Shown: in pieces, positions 21-6,442 of the stretch | Numbering within the stretch: the stretch's first letter is position 1 | How the letters are laid out: each line of letters starts with the position of its first letter | NCBI RefSeq assembly: GCF_018873765.1 | Contig: NC_057917.1 | Coordinates: 55,176,464-55,240,463 of the forward strand | Direction of reading: 5' to 3' | DNA: 64,000 nt | DNA from: Telopea speciosissima | Lineage: Eukaryota; Streptophyta; Magnoliopsida; Proteales; Proteaceae | Notes under the pieces: generated by a model | What the model saw: only the letters and a program-made list of their open reading frames with translations | What the model was told of the DNA's origin: nothing | Database searches by the model: none | Program-made: the position numbers and the translations under genes

Positions 21-240
21 AATTAAGGGAAAATTTCTTAGATCTACTAGATTAAAAAAAGAATTATAAGATAAGTAGATTTTAAATTTATTTTACATCT
101 ATAAATTTATATTTTAAAAAATTTACCTAATCCCCAAATTAGTTAGTTTCTGTCCCGTCCAACAAAAAAACTTTCTAATATATCTTTTGACCCAATTTTT
201 TTCCTTAAAAAAAAACTAAAGATAATGCTTTAGTGTAACC
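21..240 (+). repeat. Left terminal inverted repeat of the large MULE
   Basis: This matches the reverse complement of 6224-6442. Shared landmarks are 'TTAAGGGAAAATTTCTTAGA' at the outer end and 'AATGCTTTAGTGTAACC' at the inner end. A TIR longer than 200 bp is typical of Mutator elements. Confidence 0.88.
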
Positions 241-1104
241 GTTTACACTCTGGACAACTCATTAAGTTCTCTCTTATTTCTATTTGGCGGGACACTTGCA
301 GAAACTAGCAATAGTGGTGCTCGACTAGGTGCGTCTCTCTTCTCGTTATCCCTCTTTCACTCCCTGTTTTAATCCTCTAGTGGTTATCACATGCAAACTT
401 GGTAAGTATTGGCTCTCTTTCTCTACCCCAGTTGTAGCTTTTTTTTTTTTGTACCATTTTGACTGGCTCCATTTAGAGTTGCGAGTGGTGTGTTGAATCA
501 GGTTTTTATTGGTGGTATAATTGGTTGAAGGGGGGAAGGTGTTTGTTGTTTCATCCGCTTTCAATCTCTTGCCAATCTCTGGTTTTATTTTCTTATTCCT
601 CTTCTTTCATTGTTCATCACAGAAAATGGGTCCTGGCCAAAAGGGGAATACTATTATATTAATGTAAGCTTCGCTTTGTTGCTGCTCTTTTGCTTAGCTT
701 TTTAGTTCCCCTGTGTTTGAGCAATGGGTTTGAGGAATGCTAGCATTGGGCGTCTATGAACTAGTTAATTGAAAGACGGCTGGTGGTGGGTTATGTTTAT
801 CTTTCTGGATTTCCTGAGTTTCTCTTTGGATTTTTTTTTTTTTTTTGTTGGAACTCCAGATAAGAGTCTTAAAAATTCTAAATTACAATGCAAGTCTCAC
901 CAATTTAGCAATCATTTTAAGTTTTCCTTTTCCTACTCGGAAGTAAGAAGTGTCAATGTCTGCTTTACATTACATATCATAGGCTGAAAGAAGTAAACAC
1001 TGCTTTTGAGTTCTGACCATGTATTTCCTCTCCTCTGGACCGAGAGACAATTTCCAACAAGCACACCTAGCCATCATATTTGTTTACTTTATTGGATAGA
1101 CAAT

Positions 1105-1326
1105 TTAGTTGTAGTAGAGTTCGAGGCCCATGCCGTCATGAATCTCATAGTTTTTTAGGGTGATGTGATCCTTCTAGATGTTGTACCACGTCTGAATCCT
1201 GATCTTCTCAGCTCTCGTTCCCTTCTGAGCGGCAACGAGCTTCTTCAAGTCTCTGATGGTGTCATCGTCGTTGCACTTCACTCTAACTTTCTTTCCCAGA
1301 CGATCGTTCAACTACACTTCAATCAT
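1105..1326 (-). pseudogene. UBL5: Captured full-length copy of ubiquitin-like protein 5 (UBL5/Hub1)
   Basis: Read on the minus strand from ATG (1326-1324) to TAA (1107-1105), the copy is exactly 73 codons plus stop, the normal length of UBL5. It reads MIEV, then [14 protein letters not shown], a diverged middle with DLKKLVAAQ, and ends KNYEIHDGMGLELYYN, all hallmarks of the family. Codon 5 and codon 51 (the Y after WYNI in plant UBL5) are stop codons, so no protein can be made. Known UBL5/Hub1 binds spliceosomal proteins non-covalently and is not conjugated through a C-terminal di-glycine; none is present here either. Sequence upstream (1327-1410) resembles a 5' leader. The copy lies inside the MULE, opposite to the transposase, so it is most likely a captured host gene. 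It has no introns. Confidence 0.9.
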
Positions 1327-2324
1327 CTTTCCCTGCTCTTCCTCCGCCTCTTTCTTTCTCTGCAATTCACCTTGGGAAGCAAGCAATCGAGAATTACTCA
1401 CTCAGACCCAAAGACTGGGTGAGTTTCTCTTTGGATTGGTTGTAATTATTATTCTTCGTATGGATTTCTTTCTTTGAATGTCTCTGTTTAAATCTTATAG
1501 GAATCCCAAAGTCACGTATTTCTATAAGTACTTACTTCTTTGCATGGTGCCTTTGTGATATGTGTGGAAGGAGAGTATTTATAAGATTTGGTTGTTGGAA
1601 TATCCCTTTAGCTGAAGAATTGATTATATATTTGATTAGACATTGATTAAATATCTATTTCTTGTACTTTTTTTTTGGCATGATCTATTTCTTATAATAG
1701 TCAAACTAGTTAGTTTCTATTTCTTTGTTTTTCTTCTTTTATCTAAGCATGTACTGCTGTAATTGAGGATGGGATGAAATGAATGAGTTACTGGTTTATG
1801 CCTTTGAGTGTTCTGTGGTGATTTGCAACTTGTTGCTGTCGTGATGCAGAGACAGTCTTGTTGTGGTGAATCAATAGATTGGGATTGGTAGTGATTCCAT
1901 TCCTGCAGATTTTGGTGGTGATTCTAAAGTCATATATATGCTTTTATTTCTTCTTTCATATGTAAACAAGCAAAGAAGAAGAGAGTGCTAGAGATTCTAG
2001 TATCAATATTAGTTTGTCCCTATGTGCGATCTTGTTGCAATTGATATCTCGTTGGCTTCATTGTTTCGAGATCAGTTTTGTATTAGTGGCAGTAGTCTTT
2101 TATGTTAATGTTGTTAAATGGTTCCATATTGATATTCCCAAGTAAAAAGTGAATGTTGTCTACCTTGCTTTGGATGATTGGATGTGAAACCTCATCCTCA
2201 TTTAATAAGCTTTAATTGTTGCGTTGCTAGTGCTTACAATAGTATCTCTTTGAAAATGTATTTAGTATATTTTTTCTTCTTCCTTAACTTTCTTCAAAAT
2301 TTCCGTGCTACAAAAGAACTTTAT

Positions 2325-4651
2325 ATGCGTTCTCCATACGCAATGGAAACTGGTAATAGTGTTCTTGTGTTATGTACAGCTAGAGGAAATGCAGAATCTG
2401 ATTTGGGTATCATGGAATATTCTAGAGGTGATTCATTTGCTTTGAGAATTGATCAGAGTATCACATATGATCGCTTTGTGGCTGAATTATCAGCCTTGAT
2501 GAACACAGACCATCACTCTTTTAGGCTAAAGTATACTCTTCCTTGTGCCACACCAATGATGCTCACCATGTCACAAAATGAGGACATATAGAACCTCATT
2601 GATTATCCGTTTGAGTCTAAGATTGCAAAGGTATTCATTTTCAAGGAAAATGCAGTTATGCATGGGTCCTCACAAATGGCAAAGTAAGTTAAATGCACTT
2701 TTGTTTTTTTGTTGCGATATAGACAATTCATTATTGTTTATAGGTTAAGATGAATTCCTTAACATAGGACAAATATTTTTGTTTTGTAAATACAGTACAT
2801 CATCACAGGAATTGGGTCAAAGAGATGGAATCATGCAAAGATCATCGATTATGGCGACATCTGATCAAGTCCATAGAATGGCTACATTTTGGTCCAATGT
2901 GCTTGAAGGTGATGGTCAGATTTTTGACAGTGCAGCTGATTTCAAGAAAGCCATTGCTAAATATGCTATTGCCCATAAATTTGGGTATCGTATGAAGCGG
3001 ACTAACCCAAACATGGCCAAGGCAGTGTGTGACTTACATAGTTGTGACTGGTATATTTGTGCAAGTGTTATTCACGATACAGGCTGTTTTCGGGTGTACA
3101 AATCCAACTTGCAACATTTTCATCTAGCTGGTTATAGCACCCAACACAAGACAAAGGCTTCAAAGACAGTTGTCGCTGATGTAATACTTGATAAATTATG
3201 TGATTGTTCGAAATATCGTCCTATGGAGATCGTTCGAGACATAAGCAGGGAGTATGGTGTTAGATTATCATACCAACAAGCGTGGAGATGTAGAGAATTG
3301 GCCACAAGTTTGTTAGTTGGCTTACAAGAGGACTCATACAAGACCATTCCATGGCTTTGTCGTAAGATTAAGGAGTCCAATCCAGGAAGTGTAGCCGAGT
3401 ATACTTTTGAACAGGATGGAAGTTTCAGTAAGCTCTTTATAGCATTCTCTGCATGTTTGCATGGATTCACTGAAGGTTGTAGACACTTGCTTGTGCTTGA
3501 TGGGACGTTCATCGCTTCGAAATACAAAGGTACATTGCTTGTTGCTTCTGCATATGATGTAGACGATGGTATGCTACCGATTGCATTTGGTGTTGTCCCG
3601 TCTGAATCAATTGATAATTGGGAATGGTATTTGACTCAATTGAGACATGCATTGCAATATGAGATTGGAGATGAACTGGCTTTCATATCCGATCGACACA
3701 CTGGTATTATACAAGGACTACACCATGTCTTTCCTGGTTGTCCTCATGCACATTGCCTACGCCACTTGAAGGAGAACTTTAAAAAGTACCTAAAGGGTCG
3801 CTACAATCAGTCGTTTAAGGCAGCTATGGAAGCACAACTGGACAAAATTGCTTATTTACGCACAATGCATGATTATGAGAAAAATATGGAGGTCAGGCAT
3901 AAAATGAATCGTTCTGCTCATGAGTGGGTGATCCAAGCACACCCGGAAAATTGGGTAATTGCTTTATTCAAAGGAAACAGATATGATAAGCTAAATTCAA
4001 ATTTGGCTGAAACTTATAATGCATGGATAAAAGATGCCCGTGAGTTGCCTATATGTCACCTTATTGACACAATTCGGTTGAAAACTGAATGATAGGAGGA
4101 CTGAGTGCTCCAAACGGCAAGATGTTGTTGGCCCTAGGATTGCAAAGAGGTTGAAGGAATTGGTAAGCGCTTCTCATAAGTTTTTAGCCTTTCAATCAGG
4201 TGAAATGTTGTTTGAAGTTCATGAGAATGATCAATATTGGCATGTTGACCTTGGACATTGGACATGCTCATGTAAGGCATGGAGCACGAGTTCGATAGTA
4301 TGTGTACATGCTTGTGCTTGTATTAGGACCTTTGGGCTGGACGTGTATATGTTTGTTGATGATCACCATAAGACTTTTGCTTATAAAGTCATATATAGTC
4401 AAGGAATTAACCCAACGGACACAAGTGATCGACCCACGATACAAGAGTTGGTTAGTTATGGTGATGACAACGGTGATTTGCATGCAAATGAAGTTAGGGA
4501 GGGGCATATTAATCCACCTCATACTAGGCGACCTCCCGGCAGACCCCGCAAGAAACGTATAGGGTCTCAAGAGATCCCTAGACGTACCACCCACTGTAGT
4601 CAATGTCTTGAGGTTGGTCATAACCGGCAACGGTGCACTGTACCAATATAA
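2325..4651 (+). pseudogene. MuDR-type MULE transposase, broken by a stop and a frameshift
   Basis: There are two exons. Exon 1 runs from the ATG at 2325 (another at 2343) to 2683 and exon 2 from 2796, joined by a 112-bp GT-AG intron that keeps phase. Exon 1 encodes a PB1-like N-terminal domain. Exon 2 begins with the Mutator DNA-binding domain (around 2920-3070). The DDE transposase core follows, with the first Asp in LVLDGTF (~3500) and the second in FISDRHTG (~3690), followed by HCLRHLKENF. Near the C-terminus are a SWIM zinc finger (CSCKAW...CVHAC, ~4265-4320) and a CCHC knuckle (CSQCLEVGHNRQRC) before the stop at 4649-4651. One in-frame stop lies in exon 1 (2589-2591). A frameshift near 4083-4090 separates the core from the SWIM part. 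The domain order is otherwise complete, so decay is recent or slight. Confidence 0.88.
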
Positions 4652-5036
4652 ACTCCCGATGGTATGTTTTTAAATACTTATTAGTTTATTAAAGTTTCTT
4701 ACCAAAAAAAATTAGTTTATTAAAGTACTAATGAATTTGTAATTTTTTATTGACAGGTGACATTTTTTATCACCCAAGTTGTTGATGAATCCTGGGTTCC
4801 TTTAACCAATGGAGTTTAGTTTAGTATTTTGTTTAATTAGTTCCCCTACTTATATGAACTTTGGTGATGTTTGATCGTTGGACATTTTTATTTTTTAGTA
4901 TTTTATTTGTATTAAAATACCTACATTGTTTTGCCCTCCTTACAATGTTATTTCAAGCTCATTTTGCTTGAGTCTCGCTTTTGTTTACACACAATCATCA
5001 ATCGTCATTGTTAATCCAGACATATTGGGTTATTAA

Positions 5037-5067
<31 letters not shown>

Positions 5068-5325
5068 ACCGAGGTGAAATTAAGACTAGAAAATCTATAT
5101 ATGTAATACTATTGATCTGATCGGTCTCAATGGAATCGCGTCTTCCATATCTTCCCTTCCATTTGTATTTTCCAATCTTTATCACATGTGATATAGAATC
5201 CTCTTCATATGGGAACTTTATATCACATGGGATACACTTTATCTCCTTCTTCTTTTATCTCATTGTATTCTTTGTATAAATATCCCTTTGAATATTAATA
5301 GAAAACACAGCAATATTGCATCCAA
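4652..5325. other. MULE interior downstream of the transposase; no gene seen
   Basis: This is AT-rich 3' flank of the transposase. The one notable feature is a CT dinucleotide run at 5038-5067. No open frame of note is present on either strand. Confidence 0.5.
5038..5067. repeat. CT microsatellite
   Basis: A run of about 14 CT units with one interruption (CG), inside the MULE between the transposase and the SOFL-like fragment. Confidence 0.9.
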
Positions 5326-5631
5326 TCAAAGGGAATTACCGTGAAACCTTTGGCTCTTGTTGAAACCTTCAATAGACAAATCCTCTTCTTCTTCTGCTTC
5401 AACATCATCCACTTTTGCATCTTTTCCTCTGTCAAGTTTAACATTGATACCCAGGCGTGGATCACCAATTCTACCACCTACATTGTGATAAGGATTAGCA
5501 GAGGGGGAAGAGTGGTCCAAGTACATTGTCCAACCAGACTCACACATACTACGGCACTCCTTCGAAGCCCAACCAATATTCATCCTCCTCAGCTTCTTTA
5601 ATTCTCCAAAGGATCCTAGAATTTTGGTCAT
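5326..5631 (-). pseudogene. Captured fragment of a SOB-FIVE-like (SOFL) gene
   Basis: The minus-strand frame contains KECRSMCESGWTMYLDHSS, which matches the conserved SOFL domain A (a Cys/Ser-rich lead followed by ESGWTxYL). An acidic stretch (VEAEEEEDLS) follows, like the region leading to the second SOFL motif, but the expected SDASSGP-type motif is absent. The reading frame instead ends after FHGNSL. The upstream part, around 5600-5631, changes frame relative to a neighbouring open frame, so the copy looks incomplete. In Arabidopsis, SOB5/SOFL genes affect cytokinin levels. The piece lies between the transposase and the right TIR, so capture by the MULE is the simplest reading. The assignment rests on one strong motif. 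Confidence 0.6.
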
Positions 5632-6223
5632 GCTTTTTCTTCCTGGGAGCTGCTTTATTTATGAACAAAAATTTGATGAGATTGAAATTCCGAGTTACTG
5701 GCCTTGGCCTTGGTTGGTTGGTTGGTTCCCTCTCTAAGTAGCTGGGTAGGAGGTAGTACTTAGGGAGTGTGAGTGTAGTAGGATTGTGGGGGACTATGTG
5801 AAGGAAGAAAACGCCAATCAAATTTTCACATACAAATCTTAGACTACTTTTGTCCAGGTCCTCCTCGTCTCTTCTTTCCCCAATTTTTTTCCTATTCTTA
5901 AAAATTTTCCGTTTTCTTCTTAAGAATGCATCGAAACTGCCACTTGGATTGGTTTTTATTTGGGTCGACTGAGGGAGGGGACAAAGCAAGTGAGAGAGAG
6001 AGAGAGCCAATACTCACCGGGAGTAGTGAAGATTAACGAGTGGAAGAGGGATAATGAGATAGAGATAAGTGAAGATGATTAAGAGTGGAAGAGGGATAAC
6101 GAGATAGAGATAAAGGGAAGCACCTATCCGACTTCTATTAGTCTTCCAAATTTCTCCCCAAATAGATAGAAAAGGTAATTCAATAAGTTGTGCAAATGTT
6201 TTTTTTTTTTTTTAAATGCAAAT

Positions 6224-6442
6224 GGTTACACTAAAGCATTATCTTTAGCTTTTTTTAGGGGAAAAAAGTGGGTCAAAGGGTATATTAGGAAGTTTATTTG
6301 TTCGGGGGACGAAAACTAACTAATTTGGGGATTAGGTAATCTTTTTAAAATATAAATTTATAGATGTAAAACAAATTTAAAATCTACTTATCTTGTAATT
6401 CTTTTTTTAATTTAGTAGATCTAAGAAATTTTCCCTTAAATT
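6224..6442 (-). repeat. Right terminal inverted repeat of the large MULE
   Basis: This is the inverted partner of 21-240, differing by scattered substitutions and small indels. Its outer edge lies within ~7 bp of the next element, which starts at 6449. Confidence 0.88.

Follow-up and report, generated by a model that had tools for sequence, protein, structure and literature searches.

The window, i.e. the whole 64-kb stretch of DNA analysed (C2:55176464-55240463, part of an 823-Mb genome), has close to its left end a MULE in which a decayed copy of the ubiquitin-like gene UBL5 and a broken transposase are on opposite strands (Table 1). An inverted-repeat search of the window returned arms at 18-156/6306-6444 (94% complementary) and 192-247/6217-6272 (86%), and because the outer arms open with the 9-base target site duplication, the element proper spans 27-6435. 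Its TIRs are about 220 bp, with 19 differences per 219 aligned bases between left and right. All three features by which a MULE is recognized, i.e. TIRs, a 9-bp target site duplication and a MULE-type transposase, are present. The transposase is in two plus-strand frames, 2749-4092 and 4082-4651. Translation of 2749-4089 yields matches to the Pfam MULE domain (PF10551, 1e-18) and to DBD_Tnp_Mut (PF03108, 6e-14), and that of 4082-4648 a SWIM match under Pfam's cut-off. Two lesions break the transposase, an in-frame TAG at about 2589 and a break of the frame at about 4089; relatives on C7 and C10 (32.9 Mb), with 91% amino acid identity, are stop-free over the matched stretch. Only the best candidates were scored in the genome searches, so the copy counts given here are lower bounds.

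Table 1. Features of the MULE and its inserts, in window coordinates
Feature	Coordinates	Strand	Basis
Left 9-bp target site duplication TTAAATTAA	18..26	.	same 9-mer again at 6436
Left TIR of MULE	27..247	+	inverted repeats; many matches across genome
Captured intron 1 of p23-like (CS-domain) gene, left part	574..832	+	93% to C9:55778096-55778356
First 18-bp direct repeat TGAGTTTCTCTTTGGATT	815..832	.	exact repeat at 815 and 1420
A-tail of retrocopy	833..846	-	T run on + strand
Retrocopy UBL5 3′-UTR exon 2	847..1086	-	853-1085 vs C10, 91.9%
Retrocopy UBL5 exon 1 (5′ UTR, CDS, 3′-UTR start)	1087..1419	-	1087-1418 vs C10, 94.9%
UBL5 frame, 73 codons, ATG to stop	1105..1326	-	TAG at codons 5 and 51; translation, Pfam, PDB
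Second 18-bp direct repeat TGAGTTTCTCTTTGGATT	1420..1437	.	exact repeat, adjoins retrocopy 5′ end
Captured p23-like intron 1, right part	1438..2092	+	~89% to C9; 1554-2085 also like dispersed repeat
Broken MULE transposase region	2311..4651 (start approximate)	+	Pfam MULE, DBD_Tnp_Mut; C7/C10 relatives
Right TIR of MULE	6217..6435	-	inverted repeats; alignment to left TIR
Right 9-bp target site duplication TTAAATTAA	6436..6444	.	same 9-mer as at 18

When the UBL5 frame is translated with X at its two stops, its best hits are PDB chains that carry the name Ubiquitin-like protein 5 (residues 1-72, E 7e-32), and it matches the Pfam ubiquitin family at 2e-6; the resemblance is therefore above chance. 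The original prediction, made from this sequence alone, was of a complete 73-codon, start-to-stop UBL5 copy with two stop codons, sharing one MULE with a transposase on the opposite strand. The frame, its identity and its enclosure with the transposase by the same TIRs are all borne out. Its extent was underestimated: the 73-codon frame is real, but the unit to which it belongs is an mRNA copy, 833-1419 (815-1437 with its repeats), and at least three elements carry UBL5.

Designation as an mRNA copy comes from comparison with the UBL5 gene on C10, in which exon 1, ending AAG|GT, and exon 2 are ~6.3 kb (~6,281 bp) apart. The window has the two exons contiguous, and this 6.3-kb 3′-UTR intron is missing from all three retrocopies, i.e. 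those in the window, on C11 and on C6, with the acceptor side being inexact. Past the repeat there are 14 Ts in the window, and on C11 an A-rich tract of ~50 nt, with an A-rich tract also on C6. The 18-mer TGAGTTTCTCTTTGGATT occurs nowhere else within the 64-kb window. Hallmarks of processed pseudogenes are intron loss, an A-tail and direct repeats (PMC7692494, in the part of it that was accessible). The UBL5 copy has the same hallmarks as LINE processed pseudogenes, with the parent's introns absent, a 3′ poly-A tract, and a flanking duplication for which there is an empty site; it differs from them in its later mobilization by a DNA transposon.

The fit to C10 is close without being perfect. 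The retrocopies retain some 7-8 bases (AAAACAG) that in present-day C10 directly precede the closest canonical splice point, a misfit implying either that the parent's splice site has since altered or that a close relative served as parent; the last ~6 bases ahead of the A-tail also differ from C10. We infer that the parent was the C10 UBL5 gene or an ancestor of it. Recent insertion of the intron in C10 is ruled out, since the C1 paralog has the same donor and three short pieces of intron in common with it, and the intron is therefore old. The C10 and C1 genes have open frames and a Ka/Ks of 0.01, as expected of two working UBL5 genes.

The sequence on which the retrocopy landed has its own origin. 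Window 574-832 and 1420-2092 match a p23-like gene on C9 (88.7-93.1%), a match confined to intron 1; the MULE took this intron as DNA. The C9 gene opens with ATGAG|GTGAG and continues with TTTTAG|CCGACATCC, giving M-S-R-H-P, which we take to be the start of p23-type co-chaperones, and there is a CS domain (PF04969, 4.6e-9) in the product of its exon 2. Within C9 intron 1 the surrounding sequence is uninterrupted, free of UBL5 and with a single 18-bp repeat (one mismatch); this is the empty site. The left part of the intron is present in at least four MULE copies in addition to C9, and the C7 and C10 relatives retain more of its 3′ part (82-83%). A C5 relative is without 548-2097, which fits the state that would have preceded capture of the intron. 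With the intron acquired as DNA and UBL5 as retroposed mRNA, one element combines two acquisition routes.

Several other properties of the captured stretch and of the related elements were noted. Across the MULE copies compared, the stretch begins ~10 bases inside the donor and stops ~14 bases short of the acceptor, and from C9 set against window 574-2092 and the C7 MULE copy it is almost exactly one intron. Some 530 bases of it (window 1554-2085) have dozens of other matches, at ~70-83%. The MULE at C7:28.76 Mb, and that at C10:32.93 Mb, have ~258 bases with a terminal A run of ~30 that recur in other places at 75-94%; this A-ended stretch in the C7/C10 lineage is a candidate SINE or second retro-derived insert.

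In the original prediction UBL5 was taken for an ordinary Pack-MULE capture, a view that has to be abandoned as the repeat, the A-tail, the spliced join and the empty site point to a retroposed mRNA. Put at its strongest, it would have UBL5 captured from genomic DNA by gap repair with the intron being lost later, and two facts lend it some appeal: the same element did take p23-like intron 1 as DNA, and on C3 another TIR family took UBL5 as DNA. Yet the 18-bp repeat, the A-tail placed where an mRNA copy should have it and the junction between exons separated by 6.3 kb in C10 would all go unexplained, the C9 empty site with its single 18-bp repeat contradicts it, and the DNA-level C3 copy retains intron sequence. 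We regard gap-repair capture of UBL5 from genomic DNA, followed by intron loss, as extremely unlikely.

The C3 case deserves attention in its own right as an internal control for separating the two routes by which UBL5 has been acquired. At C3:72.16 Mb a 760-bp copy, 95.8% identical, consists of ~60 bases upstream, exon 1 and ~365 bases of intron, and is between inverted arms of ~380 bp (C3:72162196-72163727). These arms have at least 38 further matches in the genome among the best 40 of 3,495 candidates, some being the two arms of one element, and the flanks of the C3 element agree at 8 of 9 positions. Since the C3 copy is of DNA with part of the intron and the MULE copy is spliced, two TIR families have acquired the UBL5 host gene, each by a route of its own. 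Of those two families, as read from these sequences, intron-free UBL5 is only in the MULE of the window.

Among the nine matches (eight loci) listed for window 980-1440, the splice join is matched only in the window (C2), on C11 and on C6, and the elements carrying the retrocopy are thus on three chromosome-sized contigs. As at least three elements at different sites share the retrocopy, it is the MULE that has mobilized it. The possibility had been raised at the outset that the copy is an unrelated pseudogene caught between repeats, to be recognized by related elements lacking UBL5 at the site together with TIR homology ending before 1105. Relatives on C7, C10 (32.9 Mb) and C5 do lack UBL5 there, but a TIR-bounded element encloses the window copy, and with at least three elements sharing UBL5 inside their own TIRs an unrelated pseudogene is ruled out. 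For the C6 element the 9-bp flank AATTAAAAA is exact if one TIR end is taken one base shorter, and the C11 flanks, which are in a T run, are identical at 8 of 9 bases. The tail-side 18-bp repeat is common to all three, with a few mismatches in C6.

The C11 and C6 forms are shorter. Right after window 1414 their sequence jumps to the right TIR, so that the 5′ end of the retrocopy abuts the TIR, with ACT shared at the join; it is because of this internal deletion that they keep the tail-side repeat only. The bases directly past the join are slightly unlike between the two. However, I44T and D64G are common to both, and in a tree in which the three retrocopies group together (modest support, 75; the C1 and C3 rows being exon 1 only) C11 and C6 pair with support of 84, which makes one deleted ancestor likely, i.e. 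the two forms likely go back to a single deletion. The left TIR of C11 is additionally interrupted by 637 bp of sequence, and C6 contains a nested insert of ~5 kb. In the parts of the C11 element compared, transposase is absent between the match to window 168-1416 and the TIR.

Whether the retrocopy arrived before or after the intron entered the MULE bears on a second alternative, namely that a further copy of the p23-like gene received it and that the MULE then captured intron and retrocopy jointly from there as DNA. UBL5 is in 3 of the 3 MULE copies that cross window 815-832, and among the matches listed there is no MULE copy spanning the insertion site without it. The p23-like part is also in a fourth MULE copy, at C6:37.2 Mb, which ends at window 807, short of the insertion site, and 527-2007 is deleted from the relatives on C7 and C10 (32.9 Mb). 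While all of this suits joint capture, only one host locus with the intron part is among the matches listed, and it is empty, so that a lost second locus must be assumed. Joint capture is accordingly rather unlikely.

Very probably, then, a retroposed UBL5 mRNA entered the MULE inside an already captured intron and subsequently spread as passive MULE cargo. In outline, a MULE would have taken p23-like intron 1 as DNA. A spliced and polyadenylated UBL5 mRNA would have undergone LINE-type reverse transcription, and its copy would have been inserted into the captured piece of intron, making the 18-bp flanking repeat. From its hallmarks, the source of the reverse transcriptase would be an L1-type LINE; the target site bears only a weak resemblance to the usual LINE endonuclease motif. 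MULE transposition then brought the retrocopy to other chromosomes, and internal deletion joined its 5′ end to the right TIR in C11 and C6, with a related intact MULE presumably supplying transposase to these deleted forms. As protein-coding sequence the retrocopies are now in neutral decay.

That last step draws on comparison of substitution patterns with resident UBL5, for which the original prediction had called. Changes on the retrocopy branches, assigned by hand from a codon comparison table, are 17 replacement and 6 silent, where 21% silent is expected (one-sided p = 0.36), a neutral pattern; three more substitutions, which account for the two stops, were counted apart. The silent changes are three in C11 and three in C6, with none own to the window copy. 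Pairwise Ka/Ks against C10 is 0.36 for C11, 0.43 for C6 and 0.53 for the window, values that by themselves might suggest constraint but rest on just 5, 5 and 2 silent differences, respectively, and include C10's own silent changes. Selection on a MULE-borne protein is unsupported, as the branch-assigned changes are neutral and the low Ka/Ks comes from few silent differences. Neutral decay as protein-coding sequence is the best reading of the present state. Measured against spliced C10, the retrocopies have diverged by 0.069-0.082 (K2P).

A contrary view would be that MULE-borne UBL5 acts now, either as a protein from C11 or as antisense or small RNA on resident UBL5. The C11 frame is open over its 73 codons (with seven replacements relative to C10), its 5′ end abuts the right TIR and its pairwise Ka/Ks is the lowest of the three. 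Of the 551 21-mers of the spliced C10 reference, 121 are exact in the window, 175 in C11 and 142 in C6. Weighing against these are the neutrality of the branch-assigned changes, the stops in the window copy, loss of the start codon in C6 (ACG) and replacement of the conserved D64 (D64G) in both C11 and C6. Present action, by either means, seems quite improbable. Nevertheless, since exact 21-mers are shared with C10, a small-RNA effect on the parent, and so an RNA-level role for the retrocopies, is possible.

A further thought in the original prediction was that a MULE with a captured ubiquitin-like gene is the mirror of Kaonashi MULEs, which are non-TIR elements with a conserved ULP1 domain (PMC13317346, in its accessible part). 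The likeness is of a MULE having a gene of ubiquitin-like biology. By contrast, the window MULE has long TIRs and a ubiquitin-like gene that is decaying, and in a Pfam scan of seven proteins, five of them frames of the element, ULP1 was absent. A Kaonashi-mirror theme is unsupported, given that substitutions in the coding region look neutral and that the second captured piece derives from an unrelated p23-like gene.

Pack-MULEs are the nearer comparison, the window element being TIR-bounded with a 9-bp target duplication and carrying and moving host gene sequence (p23-like intron and UBL5). It departs from them in having transposase frames, albeit broken, where a Pack-MULE is non-autonomous, and in that copying of a piece from genomic DNA holds for the p23-like intron but not for the spliced UBL5. 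The C11 form, lacking transposase in the parts compared, is more like a Pack-MULE. According to the accessible part of the packFinder report, an element with a transposase hit is classed as autonomous (PMC8903248).

Processed copies in DNA transposons have precedents, to judge from partial texts of the reports concerned. In the fungus Pseudocercospora fijiensis an amplifying hAT element has spliced histone H3 copies that were ascribed to a transcript or retrocopy (PMC6710886). The window MULE is alike in that a spliced transcript or retrocopy is within an amplifying DNA transposon; the fungal element is RIP-mutated and the case was made from exon-exon joins, whereas here the evidence extends to an A-tail, a repeat and an empty site. 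A possible human precedent is the ARF6 retrogene in MER20 (a Pack-TIR), likewise a retrogene within a DNA transposon, for which the authors allow recurrent retroposition (PMC8277862); the same animal Pack-TIR screen, as described in the accessible text, dropped intronless captures of multi-exon genes. A word search of the available portion of a 2026 review of plant gene capture (PMC13317346) returned none of retrogene, processed, spliced and intron. By title and start of abstract, with subscription journals thinly covered, the literature yielded neither a UBL5-bearing MULE nor a retrocopy inside a plant MULE. The UBL5 case is a strongly documented variant among plant MULEs, and nothing in it points to a function.

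A single plant transposon here brings together gene duplication by way of RNA and by way of DNA, and MULE transposition then spreads both pieces. There is a small chance, which we put forward as speculation, that MULEs may act as landing sites at which reverse-transcribed host mRNAs become cargo of a DNA transposon, and that deletion, as in C11 and C6, could set a retrogene behind a TIR promoter, giving a mobile TIR-driven intronless gene or a source of siRNA against the parent. If so, screens would overlook this class wherever any element with a transposase is counted as autonomous or intronless captures are discarded. Two published screens, in those parts of their descriptions that were accessible, filter out portions of the class (PMC8277862, PMC8903248), the frequency of which would be countable.

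Other UBL5 loci were also noted. At a locus at C2:8.8 Mb, MULE sequence was not found within 1.5 kb. Two further decayed copies, C3:38912442 and C3:39018198, are ~106 kb apart and were matched over the coding stretch only, a match that does not reach the splice join. At C10:53.06-53.17 Mb and at C1:31.29-31.67 Mb, each UBL5 gene has a long open MUDR-like frame 0.1-0.4 Mb off, these frames being 34-35% identical to the window transposase, and the arrangement suggests that the C10 and C1 UBL5 regions are paralogous chromosome segments.
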